Positions 5,057 to 11,473 of a stretch of 64,000 nucleotides of DNA are shown here, piece by piece. The translations under genes and the position numbers were made by a program. The stretch lies in assembly GCA_022844565.1 (NCBI GenBank), contig JALHLK010000009.1, positions 62,001 through 126,000 on the forward strand, in the 5' to 3' direction. Source of the DNA: Saprospiraceae bacterium (lineage in GTDB: Bacteria > Bacteroidota > Bacteroidia > Chitinophagales > Saprospiraceae). How positions within the stretch are numbered: the stretch's first letter is position 1; the number at the start of each line of letters is the position of its first letter. Under the pieces are notes generated by a model, which saw nothing but the letters and a program-made list of their open reading frames with translations, was not told the origin of the DNA and searched no databases.

Positions 5057-5134
5057 ACAACTCATCCCCCTTTTTCCACACTTCGTCCTTTTGCATTTGT
5101 CCTACATTCTATTTACCCCCACCTTTGTCATATA
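5057..5134 (+). promoter_or_regulatory. Putative LytTR-box promoter of the TonB-dependent receptor
   Basis: Direct repeats ACAACTCAT (5057) and ACACTTCGT (5078) start 21 bp apart, the spacing of LytTR/AlgR-type tandem 9-bp sites. The -7-like CACCTTTG lies at 5120-5127, followed by TCATATAA. The same ACAACTCATCCyCC block sits exactly 67 bp before TTTGTCATATAA upstream of the DUF2141 gene at 7604. Binding by the LytTR regulator encoded at 10715 is an inference. Confidence 0.5.
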
Positions 5135-5144
5135 ATTAAAAAAA

Positions 5145-7301
5145 ATGATGAAGCAAGTATTATTGGGTTTATTGGTATTGACTGGTTTTTCTCTTTGGTC
5201 TCAATCGGAGATCAAAGGACGAATAGTGGATCAAAAAGGGGAAGCGATATTGGGTGTCAACGTGTATATTGATGGGACGTATGATGGCACGGTGACGGAT
5301 ACAAACGGAGTTTTTTCCTTTAAAACTACAGAAACAGGTGTGAAATCGCTAGTTGCAAGCTTTTTATCTTATGAATCATTTAAGAAAACAGGCAATGTTC
5401 AGACACTTACGAATCTTACCATAAAACTTCGTGAGAGTGTCAATGCTTTGGATGCTGTGGTCATCACTGCGGGTACTTTTGAAGCAGGTGAGAAGGCTAG
5501 GATATCTGTTTTAAAACCCCTCGATATCGTTACTACAGCGGGTGCAGCAGGTGATATCATCGGTGCTTTGACCACCCTGCCTGGTGCTCAGACGGTGGGA
5601 GAAGATGGTAGACTATTCGTAAGAGGTGGAGAGGCTAATGAAACACAGACCTTCGTAGATGGCGTCAGAGTGCCACAACCATACAGCCCAACTGCTAATA
5701 ATACACCGACAAGGAGCCGTTTTTCACCATTCCTTTTTAATGGAGTATCTTTTTCCACTGGCGGATATAGTGCTGAGTATGGCGAAGCTTTATCTAGTGT
5801 GTTAAGTTTAAATACCATAGCAGAACCTGTCCAAAATCAAACCGATATTTCATTAATGACAGTTGGTGTAGGTCTTGGTAATACAAGAAAATGGGAGAAA
5901 CAATCTGTCACTTTTAATTTGAATTATATAAACCTCGGACCGTATCAAAAATTGGTACCACAAAAACTAGATTGGAATAAACCTGTCCAATCTTCTGGTG
6001 GAGAAGTGGTATACAGATTTAAATTTAAAAACGGACTATTGAGAGCTTACGGTGCATTTGATATATCTAATTTGGATATAAATTCGGAGGATGTCAACCA
6101 ACCAACTAAAATCAGATACGCTTTGAGAAACGGTAACTCCTACGGCAATCTATCCTATAAAGGTAACTTATCAAAAGAATGGTTTATACACACGGGAGTA
6201 AGTTATGGAATAGGTACAAATAAGATTTCGATAGCCGATGATCGACTCAACAATACAGAAAACGCAATGCACTTGAAGTTGAAACTGACAAGAAGTTTAT
6301 CAGAAAGAGTGTCGATATACGGAGGTTTAGATTACTTTTATACCGATTTTGATGAAAAATATACCGAGGCGTCTGGACGTGAATTTCCTGTAGGATTTAC
6401 CAATCACTTAGGTGCTGCTTATGTAGAGTCAGATATTTTTTTTAGCAAAAATTTAGCGTTAAAATTAGGTGGAAGGGCTTCACGCAATGATTTATTGGAT
6501 GAATATCACTTTAATCCACGAGCGTCGATGGCTTACAAAGTTTATACCAACAGTCAATTTTCTTTTGCTTTTGGCGATTTTGTCCAAACACCCAATGCTG
6601 ATTATGTAAAATATAATCAAAATTTAAGTTCTGAAAGAGCGCTGCACTATATCCTTAATTATCAATACAATAAAAATGGGAGACTTTTTCGGTCAGAAGT
6701 TTATGTAAAAGATTATCAAAACCTCATAAAATTTAATACTTTACGACCTCAGTTTAATAGTCAATACACCAATGGCGGCAGCGGATATGCCCGTGGACTA
6801 GACCTATTTTGGAGAGATAGCAAAACCATTAAGAATACCGATTATTGGATTTCGTATTCCTACATTGATTCCGAAAGAGATTATCTTAATTTTCCAAATC
6901 GAGCTACCCCGTCGTTTATTGCTACCCATACTGCTTCGATCGTTACAAAGCATTGGATCGACAAACTTACGTCACAAATTGGATTTTCATACACCGTTAA
7001 TTCGGGTCGTCCCTTTAATAATCCCAACGAAGGTATGTTTATGAACGGCAAAACCAAAGCTTTTCAAAACTTGAGCTTCAATTGGGCTTATTTGATGACA
7101 CAGCAGAAAATCTTATACTTTTCTATTTCTAATATCTTTGGTACGGACAATGTATTTGGGTATCAATATGCCAATACCCCTGACATGAACGGACAGTTTC
7201 AGAGACGAGCAATTACCCAACCTGCAGACCGATTCGTTTTTGTAGGCTTCTTTTGGACCATTAGTGCGGATAAGAAGAAAAATCAGTTGAATAATTTGTA
7301 G
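5145..7301 (+). CDS. TonB-dependent receptor with carboxypeptidase-regulatory-like N-terminal domain
   Basis: A 718-residue outer-membrane protein. A signal peptide (about residues 1-19, ending near WSQ) is followed by a carboxypeptidase-D regulatory-like domain (about 22-100, with GRIVDQKGEAILGVNV), a plug domain (about 120-230, with LPGAQTVGEDGRLFVRGG and FVDGVRVP) and a beta-barrel to the C-terminus. It should take up an unknown ligand using TonB energy; no SusD partner is adjacent. It heads a plus-strand cluster with a DUF2141 protein, a TPR-like protein and a LytS/LytTR two-component system, and shares an upstream module with the DUF2141 gene, so it is probably a target of that system. 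Confidence 0.92.
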   Translation: MMKQVLLGLLVLTGFSLWSQSEIKGRIVDQKGEAILGVNVYIDGTYDGTVTDTNGVFSFKTTETGVKSLVASFLSYESFKKTGNVQTLTNLTIKLRESVNALDAVVITAGTFEAGEKARISVLKPLDIVTTAGAAGDIIGALTTLPGAQTVGEDGRLFVRGGEANETQTFVDGVRVPQPYSPTANNTPTRSRFSPFLFNGVSFSTGGYSAEYGEALSSVLSLNTIAEPVQNQTDISLMTVGVGLGNTRKWEKQSVTFNLNYINLGPYQKLVPQKLDWNKPVQSSGGEVVYRFKFKNGLLRAYGAFDISNLDINSEDVNQPTKIRYALRNGNSYGNLSYKGNLSKEWFIHTGVSYGIGTNKISIADDRLNNTENAMHLKLKLTRSLSERVSIYGGLDYFYTDFDEKYTEASGREFPVGFTNHLGAAYVESDIFFSKNLALKLGGRASRNDLLDEYHFNPRASMAYKVYTNSQFSFAFGDFVQTPNADYVKYNQNLSSERALHYILNYQYNKNGRLFRSEVYVKDYQNLIKFNTLRPQFNSQYTNGGSGYARGLDLFWRDSKTIKNTDYWISYSYIDSERDYLNFPNRATPSFIATHTASIVTKHWIDKLTSQIGFSYTVNSGRPFNNPNEGMFMNGKTKAFQNLSFNWAYLMTQQKILYFSISNIFGTDNVFGYQYANTPDMNGQFQRRAITQPADRFVFVGFFWTISADKKKNQLNNL

Positions 7302-7513
7302 GTGTGATTTTTATTTATTTTCAAATTTTTACTTCTTAAAACCCAACTCAAAACAGAACCTTGTACTAAAACTTCCCTCCAATATAAATCGGACCCCACA
7401 TCCCTAATTTTACATAGGGCACCTACATGCCCTCATTACCCCGCTTTGTCCATTTCGGACTCGAAATAATCTTACTCCCTACCTCGCTTTTATCCCAACT
7501 ACCCCCATTTCTT

Positions 7514-7591
7514 ACAACTCATCCTCCTATATCAACAACTCGGTCATAAGTTTTTGCTTTCACTTGCAGTTACCTTTACTTTTGTCATATA
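7514..7591 (+). promoter_or_regulatory. Putative LytTR-box promoter of the DUF2141 operon
   Basis: Two direct repeats, ACAACTCAT (7514) and ACAACTCGG (7535), are 21 bp apart; the -7 octamer TACTTTTG is at 7577-7584 and TCATATAA follows. The distance from first repeat to TTTGTCAT is 67 bp, the same as in front of the receptor gene at 5145. The start codon at 7604 lies about 13 nt after the expected transcription start. Confidence 0.55.
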
Positions 7592-7603: not shown

Positions 7604-8023
7604 ATGAATAGGAAACATTTATTTACAGTATTGATCGGATTGGCAGGTGTGCTTGGACACTCTCAATCCTCCACCCTCACTGTACTGGTAACTGACTTCA
7701 AAAACAATGAAGGAAAAGTAATGGTGGGCATCTACAGTGAAAAAGAAAATTTCATGAAGAAGGCTTTGATTAGAAAATCAAGTAGTATCCAAGACGGTAA
7801 AGCCGAAGTGGTATTTGAAAACCTGCCCAATGACGAATATGCCATTTCACTCTATCATGACGAAAATGAGAATGATCTGCTTGATACAGGTTGGTTTGGT
7901 ATTCCGAAGGAGGGGTATGGATGTTCGAATAACGCTAAAGGAAAAATGGGCCCTCCTAAATATGAAGATGCTAAGTTTATATTAGATAAAAGTAAAAAAT
8001 TAACAATAAAATTAAATAATTAA
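7604..8023 (+). CDS. DUF2141 domain-containing secreted protein
   Basis: A 139-residue protein with an N-terminal signal peptide (about 1-20, ending near GHSQS) followed by one DUF2141 domain. The family signatures seen are GKVMVGIYS, FENLPNDEYAISLYHDENEN and the LLDTGWFGIPKEGYGCSNN turn. DUF2141 domains are small beta-rich modules, common in Bacteroidota, of unknown biochemical role. The gene has its own promoter matching that of the receptor gene and is followed after 3 nt by the TPR-like gene, so the two are co-transcribed. Confidence 0.88.
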   Translation: MNRKHLFTVLIGLAGVLGHSQSSTLTVLVTDFKNNEGKVMVGIYSEKENFMKKALIRKSSSIQDGKAEVVFENLPNDEYAISLYHDENENDLLDTGWFGIPKEGYGCSNNAKGKMGPPKYEDAKFILDKSKKLTIKLNN

Positions 8024-8026
8024 AAA

Positions 8027-8647
8027 ATGAGAAAATTTATCGTATTAGCTATTATGTTGGTTGGTTTAGTCACTTATGGACAAACTGCGTTTGAAAAAGG
8101 AATGGGAAAAGCGATGAGCTTATGGGGAGAAGGTAAAATTAATGAGGCAAGTGCTATGTTTGAAAGGATAGCTACAGTAGAGCAAGATAATTGGTTGCCT
8201 AATTATTATGTGGCTTTGGTCAACACTACAGCTTCATTCACAATGAAGGACAAAACCCAAATAGATGCGCTGCTAAAAAAAGCGCAAACAGCCTTGGATG
8301 TAGAATTAAAAAAACAACCGAATCATCCAGAATTATTGGTGATGCAGGCTATGATTCATACAGCATGGATCAACTTCGATCCTATGACCAACGGTATGAA
8401 GTTATCTGGTCCTGTGATGGAACTGTATAGTAAAGCAGAGGCTCTAGCACCTGAAAATCCGAGAGTAGTTTTTGGTAAAACAGAGTTTGAAATGGGTTCT
8501 GCTAAATTTTTTGGTACAGATATCAAACCTTTGTGTGCTAAGGCAGAAAAAGCTATTGAACTTTTTGCTACTTTTAAGGCCGAGACTGCTTTTCATCCAT
8601 CTTGGGGTCAGGATAGGGCTCAAGCAATGGTGGCGGCATGTAAGTAA
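8027..8647 (+). CDS. TPR-like secreted protein of unknown function
   Basis: A 206-residue protein with a signal peptide (about 1-18, ending near TYGQT) and an alpha-helical body. The alternating helices such as the GEGKINEASAMFERIATVEQ stretch and KAQTALDVELKKQP resemble tetratricopeptide repeats, so a periplasmic protein-interaction role is likely. It starts 3 nt after the DUF2141 stop codon and ends 34 nt before the kinase, pointing to one operon. No enzymatic motif was recognised. Confidence 0.75.
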   Translation: MRKFIVLAIMLVGLVTYGQTAFEKGMGKAMSLWGEGKINEASAMFERIATVEQDNWLPNYYVALVNTTASFTMKDKTQIDALLKKAQTALDVELKKQPNHPELLVMQAMIHTAWINFDPMTNGMKLSGPVMELYSKAEALAPENPRVVFGKTEFEMGSAKFFGTDIKPLCAKAEKAIELFATFKAETAFHPSWGQDRAQAMVAACK

Positions 8648-8681: not shown

Positions 8682-10037
8682 TTGCAAAAGACACTTTCAT
8701 ATCTAATAAAAACTATCCTGATTGGAATATTGGTCAGTGTGACGATCACAGTAACCATGGTCATCATCCAAATCCTTTTTGGTGAAGAGTTTAATTGGGA
8801 TTTCGAAATGTTGCGCGACGTTGTTTATAATGTTTTGATGGGCTTATCCATTGCTGTAACCAATAGTCTATACTTCAATTATCTTAACAATAAGGTTAGT
8901 TGGAATACGGGAAAAGATCATTATCGGATATTAGTTGGTTTTTTGGGAAGTAGCCCTTTGACTCTTTTTTCAGTATGGTTCGTGCGATTTATTATTGAAG
9001 TTGGTTTTGAACGCCAGTCTTTTGAAAGTTTTAATAAAAATCAGCATTTTATAGATTATGCTGGCAGTTTGATTATAAGTTTGATAATTTCCCTTGTTTT
9101 TCACGTAATCTACATTAATAAAAAATTACAAGAAAATAAAGTAAAAGAGCAAAAAATAATCGCTGGAAATGCTTCTGCTCAATTTGAAAGTCTAAAAAAT
9201 CAAATCGATCCACATTTTTTATTTAATAGTCTGAATGTATTGAGTTCGCTGATTGAGGAAAATCCTGATAATGCACAAAGATTTACTACATCGCTCTCGA
9301 AAATCTATCGATACGTGTTAGATCAAAAAGATAAAGAGTTGGTGCTGTTGCAAGAAGAATTGGATTTCGCTAAGACTTACATGAAATTGCTCATGATGAG
9401 ATTTGAAAACAGCCTGACATATAGCCTACCTAAACTTCCAGTTGACTCAGAGGCGAAAGTTGTGCCACTCTCACTTCAATTGCTACTTGAAAATACGATT
9501 AAACACAATATAGTCAGTGACAAACAGCCCTTACATATTTCTATTGAAGTAGAAGGAGATTATCTTTCAGTTTCAAACAACCTTCAGAAAAAAGAGGTTT
9601 TGCAAAGTGGACAAGGTGTTGGGCTAAAAAACATCATAAGTCGGTATGCGATTTTGACAGACAAAAAAGTCGAAGTTGCTACGGATGCTGCCTACTTCAA
9701 AATAAAAATCCCAATACTAACCAAAGAGATTACATTAATAAAAAATAAAAAATACAACGAAATGGATGCATATTTAAAAGCTAAAAAACAGGTTAAAGAA
9801 ATAAAAGATTTTTATGGCAATTTGATTTCGTATAGCTTTATTATTCCTATTTTAGCCTTTATCAATTATATGACTTTTTGGGAATTTAAATGGTTTTTGT
9901 TCCCATTGTTTGGTTGGGGATTAGGGGTAGTGATTCAAGGGCTTTCAGTTTTTGGATTTGGTAGAAGTTGGGAAGAAAGAAAAATTGACGAGTTTATGCA
10001 AAAAGAACAACAAAATAAAAACAGTAAATGGGCTTAA
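8682..10037 (+). CDS. LytS-type sensor histidine kinase with C-terminal 2TM domain
   Basis: A 451-residue membrane kinase read from a TTG codon. Domain order: four N-terminal membrane segments (about residues 8-32, 45-65, 84-106, 128-146), a His_kinase (PF06580-type) region with phospho-acceptor His178 in DPHFLFNSLN, an ATP-binding part with LLENTIKHN (268-276) and GQGVGLKNI (310-318), then a 2TM domain (about 358-441) ending in GRSWEERKIDEFM. The 2TM part is homologous to the separate protein encoded immediately downstream. It very likely phosphorylates the LytTR regulator at 10715. Its 3' end overlaps the next gene by 10 nt. Confidence 0.88.
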   Translation: MQKTLSYLIKTILIGILVSVTITVTMVIIQILFGEEFNWDFEMLRDVVYNVLMGLSIAVTNSLYFNYLNNKVSWNTGKDHYRILVGFLGSSPLTLFSVWFVRFIIEVGFERQSFESFNKNQHFIDYAGSLIISLIISLVFHVIYINKKLQENKVKEQKIIAGNASAQFESLKNQIDPHFLFNSLNVLSSLIEENPDNAQRFTTSLSKIYRYVLDQKDKELVLLQEELDFAKTYMKLLMMRFENSLTYSLPKLPVDSEAKVVPLSLQLLLENTIKHNIVSDKQPLHISIEVEGDYLSVSNNLQKKEVLQSGQGVGLKNIISRYAILTDKKVEVATDAAYFKIKIPILTKEITLIKNKKYNEMDAYLKAKKQVKEIKDFYGNLISYSFIIPILAFINYMTFWEFKWFLFPLFGWGLGVVIQGLSVFGFGRSWEERKIDEFMQKEQQNKNSKWA

Positions 10038-10354
10038 CAATGGAAAACTTAGATGAAAAAATGATTTACGAAGCCGCAAAAAAGCGCGTTGAAAAATTAA
10101 AAGGATTTTATATTCACTTTTTGGTGTACTTGATAGTTAATGCTTTTATCATTTATGCCAATTATCAACACGGAAATCCGAAAGGTTCACTTTTCCAATT
10201 GCAAAATTTTTCAACTGCCTTTTTTTGGGGTATTGGTCTTGCTGCACATGGTTTGAATGTGTTCTCTCTCGATCTATTTTTTGGAAAAGAATGGGAAGAA
10301 CGTAAAATTCGTGAACTCATGGATAGAGATAGAGAAAGAAATGATTTTGTTTAA
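10028..10354 (+). CDS. 2TM domain-containing protein
   Basis: A 108-residue protein made of a short N-terminal amphipathic helix (YEAAKKRVEKLKGFYIHF), two membrane segments and the EWEERKIRELMDRDRERN tail. This is the free-standing form of the 2TM domain (PF13239-like) that ends the preceding kinase, with which it overlaps by 10 nt. Free 2TM genes commonly accompany LytS/LytTR pairs in Bacteroidota. A role as accessory or modulator of the kinase is plausible but not shown. Its start, MGLTMENLDEKM, could also be at the second methionine. Confidence 0.85.
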   Translation: MGLTMENLDEKMIYEAAKKRVEKLKGFYIHFLVYLIVNAFIIYANYQHGNPKGSLFQLQNFSTAFFWGIGLAAHGLNVFSLDLFFGKEWEERKIRELMDRDRERNDFV

Positions 10355-10373: not shown

Positions 10374-10464
10374 ATGACTGAGTGGTTGCGACATTAGGAG
10401 CAAATCGAGTATGACTGAGTGGTTGCGACGAAAGGAGCAAATCGAGTGAAAGATTTCACTCGAT
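10374..10464. repeat. Two 37-bp tandem repeats followed by an 11-bp perfect hairpin
   Basis: Units at 10374-10410 and 10411-10447 begin ATGACTGAGTGGTTGCGAC and end AGGAGCAAATCGAGT. The end of unit 2 forms one arm of a perfect inverted repeat, ATCGAGTGAAA (10441-10451) and TTTCACTCGAT (10454-10464). No T-run follows, so it is not a simple terminator. Confidence 0.8.
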
Positions 10465-10481
10465 AACGAAGGAACCGAGCA

Positions 10482-10608
10482 AAACTTTGCGAGGCTACTT
10501 CCAATGCTAACAGAACCAAAATCAAACTTTGCGAGGCTACTTCCAATGCTAACAGAACCAAAATCAAACTTTGCGAGGCTACTACAAATGCTAAATAGAA
10601 CCAATATC
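10482..10608. repeat. Three 42-bp tandem repeats
   Basis: Units begin with AAACTTTGCGAGGCTACT at 10482, 10524 and 10566, exactly 42 bp apart; the first two are almost identical and the third is diverged with one extra base. They lie between the 2TM gene and the LytTR gene. Because 42 is a multiple of 3, the minus strand shows an apparent repetitive reading frame, which is most likely not a gene. Confidence 0.85.
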
Positions 10609-10714
10609 AATCTTGAGAGGCATATACTATTCTTGAATGTATGAATGTGAAAATATTAAAGAAGGCAAAATTCAAATACTTATACCCAAACACCATAAAC
10701 ATAGGAAGAAAGTG

Positions 10715-11473
10715 ATGATGACAACGATTATAATTGAAGATGAAAAGCCTGCAGCAAGGATGTTGCAGCGAAAACTTGAGCGACTACAAATTCCAGTGGA
10801 AGTTATGCTACATTCAGTACAAGAGGCGGTAGATTGGTTTCAGAATAATCCACAACCTGATTTGATATTTTTAGATATCCAACTTTCCGATGGATTATCA
10901 TTTGAAATTTTTGAAAAAGTTTCAATACAAAGTCCAGTCATTTTCACAACGGCTTATGATGAATATGCATTGCGTGCGTTTAAACTCAATAGTATTGATT
11001 ACTTGTTGAAGCCTATTGATGAGGATGACTTAGAAGTCGCGATTGGGAAGTATAAGTCGCGCACGAATCAAGAATCAACGGGAAGCATGGACATGGCAAC
11101 AATTCGACAATTATTTTCGTCTACCAAAGATGTAGAATACAGAAAACGGTTTAGCGTAAAAGTAGGGGATCATATCAAAATCATTCCGATTGAAGAGATC
11201 GAATTGATTTACAGTGAGTATAAAGGTTCTTATTTGCATAGTTTAGAGGGCCGTACCTACTTATTGGATAGCTCGCTTGATGCAATTGAGAAAGAATTAG
11301 AACCAAAACACTTCTTTAGAGTAAGTCGAAAATACATTGTACCACTAAAGGCTATAAAAGACATCATCGTTTATAGTAATTCACGACTGAAGATCACGCT
11401 AAAATCTTACAATAAAGAAGAAGTTATCGTCAGTCGAGAGCGAGTGGGAGAATTTAGGACTTGGCTAGGATAA
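10715..11473 (+). CDS. LytTR family response regulator
   Basis: Response regulator with a receiver domain (about residues 1-120; Asp54 in LIFLDIQL is the phospho-acceptor, Lys in DYLLKPI) and a C-terminal LytTR DNA-binding domain (about 145-252). I start it at the ATG preceded by AGGAAGAAAG and followed by MMTTIIIEDEKPAAR, which matches the usual start of this family; an upstream in-frame ATG at 10637 would add 26 low-similarity residues. It forms a two-component pair with the kinase at 8682 and is separated from it by the 2TM gene and tandem repeats. Likely targets are the 21-bp-spaced repeats before 5145 and 7604. Confidence 0.9.
   Translation: MMTTIIIEDEKPAARMLQRKLERLQIPVEVMLHSVQEAVDWFQNNPQPDLIFLDIQLSDGLSFEIFEKVSIQSPVIFTTAYDEYALRAFKLNSIDYLLKPIDEDDLEVAIGKYKSRTNQESTGSMDMATIRQLFSSTKDVEYRKRFSVKVGDHIKIIPIEEIELIYSEYKGSYLHSLEGRTYLLDSSLDAIEKELEPKHFFRVSRKYIVPLKAIKDIIVYSNSRLKITLKSYNKEEVIVSRERVGEFRTWLG

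Follow-up and report, generated by a model that had tools for sequence, protein, structure and literature searches.

Two identically spaced modules of putative LytTR operators in a TonB-dependent receptor cluster of a Saprospiraceae bacterium

Promoter modules and gene cluster

The analyzed stretch, hereafter the window, comprises 64,000 nucleotides (64 kb) from the genome of a Saprospiraceae bacterium and contains a cluster of forward-strand genes that encode a TonB-dependent receptor, a DUF2141 protein, a protein with weak similarity to tetratricopeptide repeats (TPR), a LytS-type histidine kinase, a 2TM-domain membrane protein, and a LytTR response regulator. Two promoters of the cluster, P1 upstream of the receptor gene and P2 upstream of the DUF2141 gene, share a module formed by two 9-mers and a -7 promoter element. 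The 9-mer pairs are probably LytTR operators, through which the sensor-regulator pair of the cluster very probably activates the receptor gene and its own expression. The elements of the two modules are as follows.

5057..5065, + strand: P1 distal putative LytTR half-site ACAACTCAT, predicted to lie at about -75 (match search and consensus of relatives)
5078..5086, + strand: P1 proximal putative LytTR half-site ACACTTCGT, starting 21 bp past the first (spacing scan)
5096..5099, + strand: P1 possible -33 element TTTG, 28 bp before the TTTG of the -7 element (offset 39)
5120..5127, + strand: P1 putative -7 element CACCTTTG of the TAnnTTTG type, its TTTG 67 bp from the first half-site (consensus as excerpted from PMC9723704)
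7514..7522, + strand: P2 distal putative LytTR half-site ACAACTCAT (match search)
7535..7543, + strand: P2 proximal putative LytTR half-site ACAACTCGG (sequence)
7553..7556, + strand: P2 possible -33 element TTTG (read directly from the sequence)
7577..7584, + strand: P2 putative -7 element TACTTTTG, an exact TAnnTTTG (sequence)

The first shared block, ACAACTCATCCyCC, occurs as ACAACTCATCCCCC at 5057-5070 and as ACAACTCATCCTCC at 7514-7527. In the 64 kb, ACAACTCATCCYCC has no other zero-mismatch match, and three matches with two or fewer mismatches were observed, compared to 0.46 expected from shuffled sequences. The second block, TTTGTCATATAA, is present in exactly two copies (5124 and 7581), each 67 bp past the first block. 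The exact match search confirmed the claim of an earlier note on this DNA that the two blocks are separated by exactly 67 bp at both promoters. The second, related 9-mers that it had placed 21 bp past the first, start to start, are indeed present, as ACACTTCGT at 5078 and ACAACTCGG at 7535. Its description of the sequence between the blocks as otherwise diverged was slightly overstated, since the aligned P1 and P2 are identical at 54 of 84 positions overall and at 27 of the 51 positions between the shared block and the -7 box.

Conservation of the second block in relatives extends to TTTG and the A of TAnnTTTG, and the bases past TTTG are variable; TTTG and its preceding bases are, as judged from the sequence, the -7 box TAnnTTTG of Bacteroidota sigma-A. 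This box sits at -12 to -5 in Flavobacterium psychrophilum (excerpt of PMC9723704), so the tandem would span about -75 to -46, with its center near -60, and transcription is predicted to start near 5132 and 7589. LytTR operators are defined as two direct repeats of 9-11 bp with an 11-13 bp spacer (PMC4847170, as excerpted), and the pairs described here consist of two 9-mers with a 12-bp spacer, located upstream of a promoter and kept in relatives.

The genes of the cluster encode the following proteins.

5145..7301, + strand: TonB-dependent receptor, 718 aa, with CarbopepD_reg, Plug, and barrel (Pfam, structure model)
7604..8023, + strand: DUF2141 protein, 139 aa, PF09912, probably secreted as judged from its N-terminus (Pfam)
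8027..8647, + strand: 206-aa protein, probably secreted, with weak TPR similarity, a conserved cluster member (homolog search)
8682..10037, + strand: LytS-type histidine kinase, His_kinase PF06580 and a C-terminal 2TM domain, start codon uncertain (Pfam)
10028..10354, + strand: 2TM-domain membrane protein (Pfam)
10715..11473, + strand: LytTR response regulator with receiver D54 and LytTR domain, the proposed binder of P1 and P2 (Pfam)

The domain calls of the earlier note for the receptor, the DUF2141 protein, the kinase, and the regulator were right by Pfam. The regulator combines PF00072 (E 4.6e-14) with PF04397 (E 1.4e-20), and its receiver Asp54 is invariant among the 25 regulators compared, which makes it a LytTR response regulator. 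It scores 104.4 bits against the BtsR model, below the equivalog cut-off of 246, and no YpdB model is among the 25 listed of its 31 NCBIfam hits. The kinase is assigned to the LytS type by PF06580 (E 1.7e-25), with membrane helices judged from the sequence only; it also contains a PHFLFN motif, which, like the invariant Asp54 of the regulator, counts in favor of the circuit proposed below. The presence of a LytS kinase and of a receiver domain sets the pair apart from a LytTR Regulatory System (LRS).

The receptor contains a carboxypeptidase-regulatory domain and Plug PF07715 (E 1.8e-07); the Plug and the modeled beta-barrel identify it as a TonB-dependent receptor. It falls outside SusC/RagA (TIGR04056, 57.1 bits at the N-terminus only, compared to a cut-off of 368.25) and outside the FecA type, as Pfam revealed no STN domain in the receptor and no extracytoplasmic function (ECF) sigma or anti-sigma domain in the seven proteins scanned. 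In a structure comparison, the barrel of the receptor model (mean pLDDT 72.8, residues 109-213 mostly under 50, plug poorly modeled) matched BtuB with Z 21.6 over 461 residues at an rmsd of 3.1. PirA (21.4), the FhuA model (21.2), ChuA (20.2), and FecA (19.6) fit about equally well, a Foldseek search likewise matched many receptors, and therefore no ligand was assigned from the fold. A profile search of PDB sequences with the receptor gave three hits only, all to the N-terminal domain. Between the 2TM and regulator genes, tandem repeats occupy 10374-10621 (37 bp in 2.0 copies and 42 bp in 3.3 copies), and the number of small 2TM-like open reading frames (ORFs) between kinase and regulator differs among loci L114-L193.

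Conservation of the promoter module

The Flavobacteriaceae set comprises the best 80 of at least 516 loci confirmed in a scan of named genomes with receptor alignment; 77 of the 80 are labeled as Flavobacteriaceae genera or as the family. BLAST with the window proteins detected the regulator in 65 of these loci, the kinase in 67, the TPR gene in 73, and the DUF2141 gene in 22. Environmental strains with the cluster include F. filum DSM 17961 (L115) and F. denitrificans DSM 15936 (L163). In this set, as in the spacing scan and the first box count for the host family below, the box was chosen without use of TTTG. All 80 receptor genes are preceded by the tandem box and by TTTG at exactly 67 bp, the next commonest TTTG offset being found in 5 of 80. 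The box also precedes the second gene in all 66 loci with a suitable gap (100-1500 bp), with TTTG at 67 bp in 63 of them. The A of TAnnTTTG was not a selection criterion and reaches 2.0 bits in each promoter set. Mean information contents in the receptor promoters are 1.58 and 1.57 bits for the half-sites, 1.43 for the -7 box, and 0.56 for offsets 32-60; the corresponding values in the second-gene set are 1.62, 1.63, 1.57, and 0.84 bits. TTTG near -33 occurs in few of the 80 receptor promoters (8 at offsets 38-43).

As a control, 894 other ORF upstream regions of the same loci were scanned; none contained the box with TTTG at 67 bp and one contained the box alone. Of the 153 starts of genes for the receptor, the DUF2141 protein, or the TPR protein, 116 were preceded by both, some of the 153 being internal to the transcription unit. 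The exact distances are kept from Flavobacterium to Polaribacter, Cellulophaga, Winogradskyella, and Gelidibacter and are looser in the second family, that of the host. One contig with a Flavobacterium-type cluster (L173) is labeled as a Limnohabitans metagenome-assembled genome and is probably mis-binned.

Within Saprospiraceae, a homolog of the TPR gene was found in 49 of 150 genomes, the host included. We annotated 54 stretches around receptor or TPR matches by BLAST to the window proteins and scanned 48 receptor upstream regions. For pairs of the window half-site ACAACTCAT at spacings of 10-40, 21 bp alone stands out, on the + strand only: 16 of the 48 regions score at least 14 of 18 at this spacing, compared to 0-4 at other spacings and a mean of 0.20 (maximum 2) in 50 shuffles. 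With a family-weighted half-site the box was detected in 39 of the 48 regions; TTTG follows at exactly 67 bp in 20 of them and within 66-68 bp in 25, and several boxed loci without TTTG at 67 bp have a near-TTTG there. TTTG at the -33 offset of P1 (39) recurs in 10 of the 39 boxed relatives. Slightly different weights and threshold gave 38 boxes, 31 of them in the 35 loci whose fetched stretch includes a LytTR gene and 7 in the 13 loci without one. In 19 loci the gap between the receptor and the next gene measures 90-1800 bp; a second box with a score of 16 or more was detected in 7 of these, 5 of which have TTTG at 67 bp. Conservation of both 9-mers and of their spacing in relatives, whose absence the earlier note had named beforehand as grounds for rejecting its idea, was thus observed in both families, with no occurrence of the full module at the 894 control starts.

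Specificity of the module

In the 5.59 Mb host genome, a search for the full module returned six matches (control 5): P2 with no mismatches, P1 with one, and four others with two or three. The tandem pattern ACAACTCAT-N12-ACAACTCAT with up to three mismatches has 23 matches (backward control 8), six of which, on contig C21, are nearly alike; the half-sites alone are thus not specific, whereas the full module is. We also built a sequence-only model, R1, from 22 modules, namely P1, P2, and those 20 of the 39 boxed family loci chosen for TTTG at 67 bp; sites found with R1 in the named genomes and in the 150 family genomes are therefore biased toward this distance. In the host genome R1 gave E-values of 1.5e-13 and 1.3e-12 for P1 and P2 and 0.037 for the next match, and P1 and P2 are the only strong sites.

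The regulator has 18 matches in the host genome at E 0.001. The eight listed are all full-length and include the regulator of the window and seven others; the ten unlisted ones may share the receiver alone. No strong copy of the module was found at the seven other LytTR loci examined, and the best self-repeats of the same geometry at L301, L302, L303, and L305 agree at 6-7 of 9 positions, a value given here without a chance comparison. A marginal third site, ACGACTCAT-N12-ACGCTTCAT, lies at 1501-1592 of locus L196 (host contig C32), with a -7 TTTG at 88 bp (67+21); it precedes a gene for a DUF4595-like protein (under the family cut-off), and two LytTR genes are located on the same contig.

Across 15 genomes of the named set, R1 gives between one and five matches each at E 0.01. 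The 30 listed loci include 22 before receptor, DUF2141, or TPR genes, one before a 2TM-like gene, three before genes for a head-GIN protein (DUF2807), a weakly DUF2306-like, and a weakly DUF4440-like protein, and four with no ORF of at least 60 aa within 400 bp. At L138 and L140, the fetched stretch around the boxed receptor contains no regulator, and another site of that genome lies elsewhere, before a TPR gene, an arrangement that suggests action in trans.

Second class of receptor operons

At E 0.001, under stricter filters that lose weak matches, R1 identified 71 places in 49 of the 150 host-family genomes. We fetched 20 of these regions, mostly near LytS/LytTR genes and away from the first type of cluster. 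In 15 of them (L279-L284, L286-L291, and L294-L296) the next long ORF, in one case cut by the contig end, encodes a protein of about 800 aa whose N-terminus is that of another receptor type, and we refer to these operons as type B, the window cluster being type A. By eye, a kinase-like ORF follows 13 and a receiver-like ORF 9 of the 15 receptors, several stretches being short. Pfam searches with seven proteins (three from L282, two from L283, and one each from L284 and L279) confirmed receptor domains in all three receptors, the kinase domain in the single kinase, and LytTR in both regulators, and gave no hit for the L279 protein encoded between the receptor and the kinase-like ORF. A type B receptor is 24% identical to the window receptor over about 240 N-terminal residues, and the regulators are 45% identical. 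TTTG at 67 bp was found in 13 of the 20 regions, where the choice of site gave a bonus to that distance. The fixed geometry seems to be a general layout of LytTR promoters in this group.

Origin of the cluster

The window receptor is 69% identical to that of F. piscinae and 68-69% to that of F. filum, compared to at most 48% in long matches within its own family (55% for one 94-residue fragment). Likewise, identities of the regulator range from 57 to 66% for the 65 regulators found in the 80 loci (63-65% at the three nearest) and do not exceed 49% among the listed matches from the family and order. In the trees considered, namely the TPR tree and most of the receptor tree, both window proteins are placed inside the Flavobacterium group (SH-aLRT 100 and 98 for the smallest starred sets). 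The TPR gene and a close receptor were not found in G003 and G004, the two genomes of the same genus covered by that search (G001, G002, and G005 lie outside it). The rhomboid gene upstream of the cluster has homologs of 54-67% identity in five same-genus genomes; tblastn of 16 window proteins against these five rhomboid stretches, some of them short, recovered the rhomboid only and defined no empty site. As the receptor and the TPR protein nest inside Flavobacterium, the simplest reading is that the cluster was probably acquired horizontally, with both promoters, from a Flavobacterium-like donor.

Relation to characterized systems

A regulator gene beside the TonB-dependent receptor that it controls is known for ECF sigma/anti-sigma (FecIR-type) and SusR/HTCS systems. 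These employ another class of regulator, and the present cluster lacks STN, sigma, and anti-sigma domains. AgrA controls other targets, in peptide quorum sensing of a Gram-positive bacterium. Like the modules described here, the agr P2 and P3 promoters carry direct AgrA repeats near -60, and AgrA promoters have suboptimal spacing (PMC4227749, as excerpted).

Further parallels come from excerpts of two other articles. Similar to the present cluster, the YpdA/YpdB-yhjX system of E. coli combines a LytS/LytTR pair with a 21-bp direct repeat (PMC4847170): by our count on the printed yhjX oligonucleotide, the YpdB repeat GGCATTTCAT recurs at 21 bp start to start, and the YpdB half-site GCATTTCAT falls within the RCANYTCAK range of the half-sites found here. 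The sole direct target of YpdB is a transporter gene, which recalls the receptor target proposed here, but this transporter belongs to the major facilitator superfamily and is not a TonB-dependent receptor, and the ligand of the system is pyruvate (PMC4847170). Autoregulated LytTR operons have 9-bp direct repeats, mostly with 12-bp spacers, just upstream of the promoter; this layout and a membrane protein encoded beside the regulator are shared with LRS of the Streptococcus mutans type (HdrRM, BrsRM), which are positively autoregulated (PMC6193735). An LRS consists of a LytTR regulator and an inhibitory membrane protein (PMC6193735) and has no kinase, whereas the present cluster encodes a LytS kinase and a regulator with a receiver domain. 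In half-site, spacing, and position, the modules thus resemble characterized LytTR sites.

Proposed circuit and alternative explanations

We assign a probability of roughly 0.8 to the interpretation that the 9-mer pairs are LytTR operators and that the LytTR regulator and LytS kinase of the cluster activate P1 and P2 in a self-reinforcing manner. Relatives keep the layout almost to the base, and therefore the pair very probably controls the receptor and itself. The link to this particular regulator follows from the conserved synteny, from the presence of only two strong sites despite seven further listed full-length LytTR regulators, and from the apparent joint transfer of genes and boxes. The compact circuit of receptor and regulator proposed by the earlier note, in which the LytS/LytTR pair controls its own neighbors, is thereby supported, by a link that is circumstantial but strong.

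The LytS-type kinase would sense a signal at the membrane and phosphorylate the adjacent regulator (10715-11473), which would bind both half-sites on one face of the DNA (21 bp, two helical turns) with the center near -60 and activate sigma-A RNA polymerase at promoters with a variable -33 element. P1 would drive the receptor gene, and P2 the genes for the DUF2141 protein, the TPR protein, the kinase, the 2TM protein, and probably the regulator, resulting in positive feedback. The mechanism would follow the logic of YpdA/YpdB, whose sole direct target is a transporter gene (PMC4847170, as excerpted).

Several observations weigh against this interpretation. The 80 Flavobacteriaceae loci are related, so that 80 of 80 does not amount to 80 independent trials. 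The geometry is looser in the host family, where 9 of 48 regions lack a box at the threshold and 20 of 39 boxed ones have TTTG at 67 bp; furthermore, 4 of the 35 loci with a LytTR gene are below threshold, and 7 of the 13 without one are boxed, some of these loci being cut by contig ends. P1 and P2 both have TTTG at the -33 position, and the missing -33 element of most Flavobacteriaceae promoters therefore does not apply to them. Finally, other LytTR proteins of the host could bind P1 or P2, and the very similar half-sites of type B operons make cross-regulation possible.

The last two points bear on a variant to which we give a low chance, namely that the boxes are LytTR operators bound mainly by, or shared with, another LytTR paralog, with the local pair being one of several inputs. 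In its favor are the seven other full-length regulators listed, the near-identical half-sites of type A and type B operons within one genome (G163, G159, G022, G131, G134, and G149), and several boxed receptor loci whose fetched stretch contains no regulator (L138, L140, L179, and L189-L191). However, both strong sites of the host lie in the cluster, and none of the other seven LytTR loci examined has a strong copy of the module. The TPR gene was not found in G003 and G004, which belong to the same genus as the host; at E 0.001 no site was detected in G004, whereas G003 has two, and the G003 site that was inspected lies at the head of a type B operon. Repression of P1 and P2 by the LytTR protein appears improbable. 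The sign of regulation is not readable from the sequence, the 2TM proteins or the kinase could invert the signal, and the possible -33 TTTG might allow both promoters to work without an activator. On the other hand, the site center near -60 is upstream of the -33 region and off the core promoter, like the AgrA repeats (excerpt of PMC4227749), its position is similar to that of the LRS autoactivation repeats (excerpt of PMC6193735), and few of the 80 receptor promoters have TTTG near -33.

The idea that a promoter was recently duplicated in place and that the shared module has no regulatory function, to which the 54 identical positions of 84 might point, is hardly credible: both promoters occur in 66 of the 80 loci, and conservation is concentrated in the half-sites and the -7 box relative to offsets 32-60, which already contradicts it. 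We regard receptor-linked regulation of the FecIRA type, with an ECF sigma factor and an anti-sigma factor, as equally implausible; it would fit the location of receptor and regulators in one cluster, but no ECF sigma or anti-sigma domain is present in the seven proteins scanned and no STN in the receptor, and the -7 boxes are of the sigma-A type.

Implications

Neither LytTR operators nor TonB-dependent receptors are new in themselves; what we did not find described is the occurrence of LytTR operators of known layout in a receptor circuit. In the open-access literature searched, as far as its texts were available, we found no account of a Bacteroidota LytS/LytTR pair that serves TonB-dependent receptors specifically. 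Excerpts of PMC5399024 (OmpR type), PMC10057207, PMC5395568, and PMC10197871 (LytTR and kinase mutations in F. johnsoniae) contained nothing pertinent. Such pairs may even constitute a general, so far undescribed Bacteroidota control of these receptors, a tentative and rather doubtful extension suggested by the presence of two or more receptor types, only distantly related, in operons that include a pair of their own and have promoters of one fixed geometry; the receptor and its probably secreted DUF2141 and TPR partners may feed the kinase. If true, this would be a trans-envelope signaling route without sigma and anti-sigma factors.

To our knowledge, few targets are known for the LytTR regulators of such bacteria, which are rich in these regulators, and the exact geometry offers a sequence signature that would predict members of their regulons. 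The circuit also gives a way into DUF2141, which occurs in just three papers of the open-access literature searched, and the cluster, which appears to have been transferred together with its two promoters, may serve as a natural test of the self-containment of the circuit.

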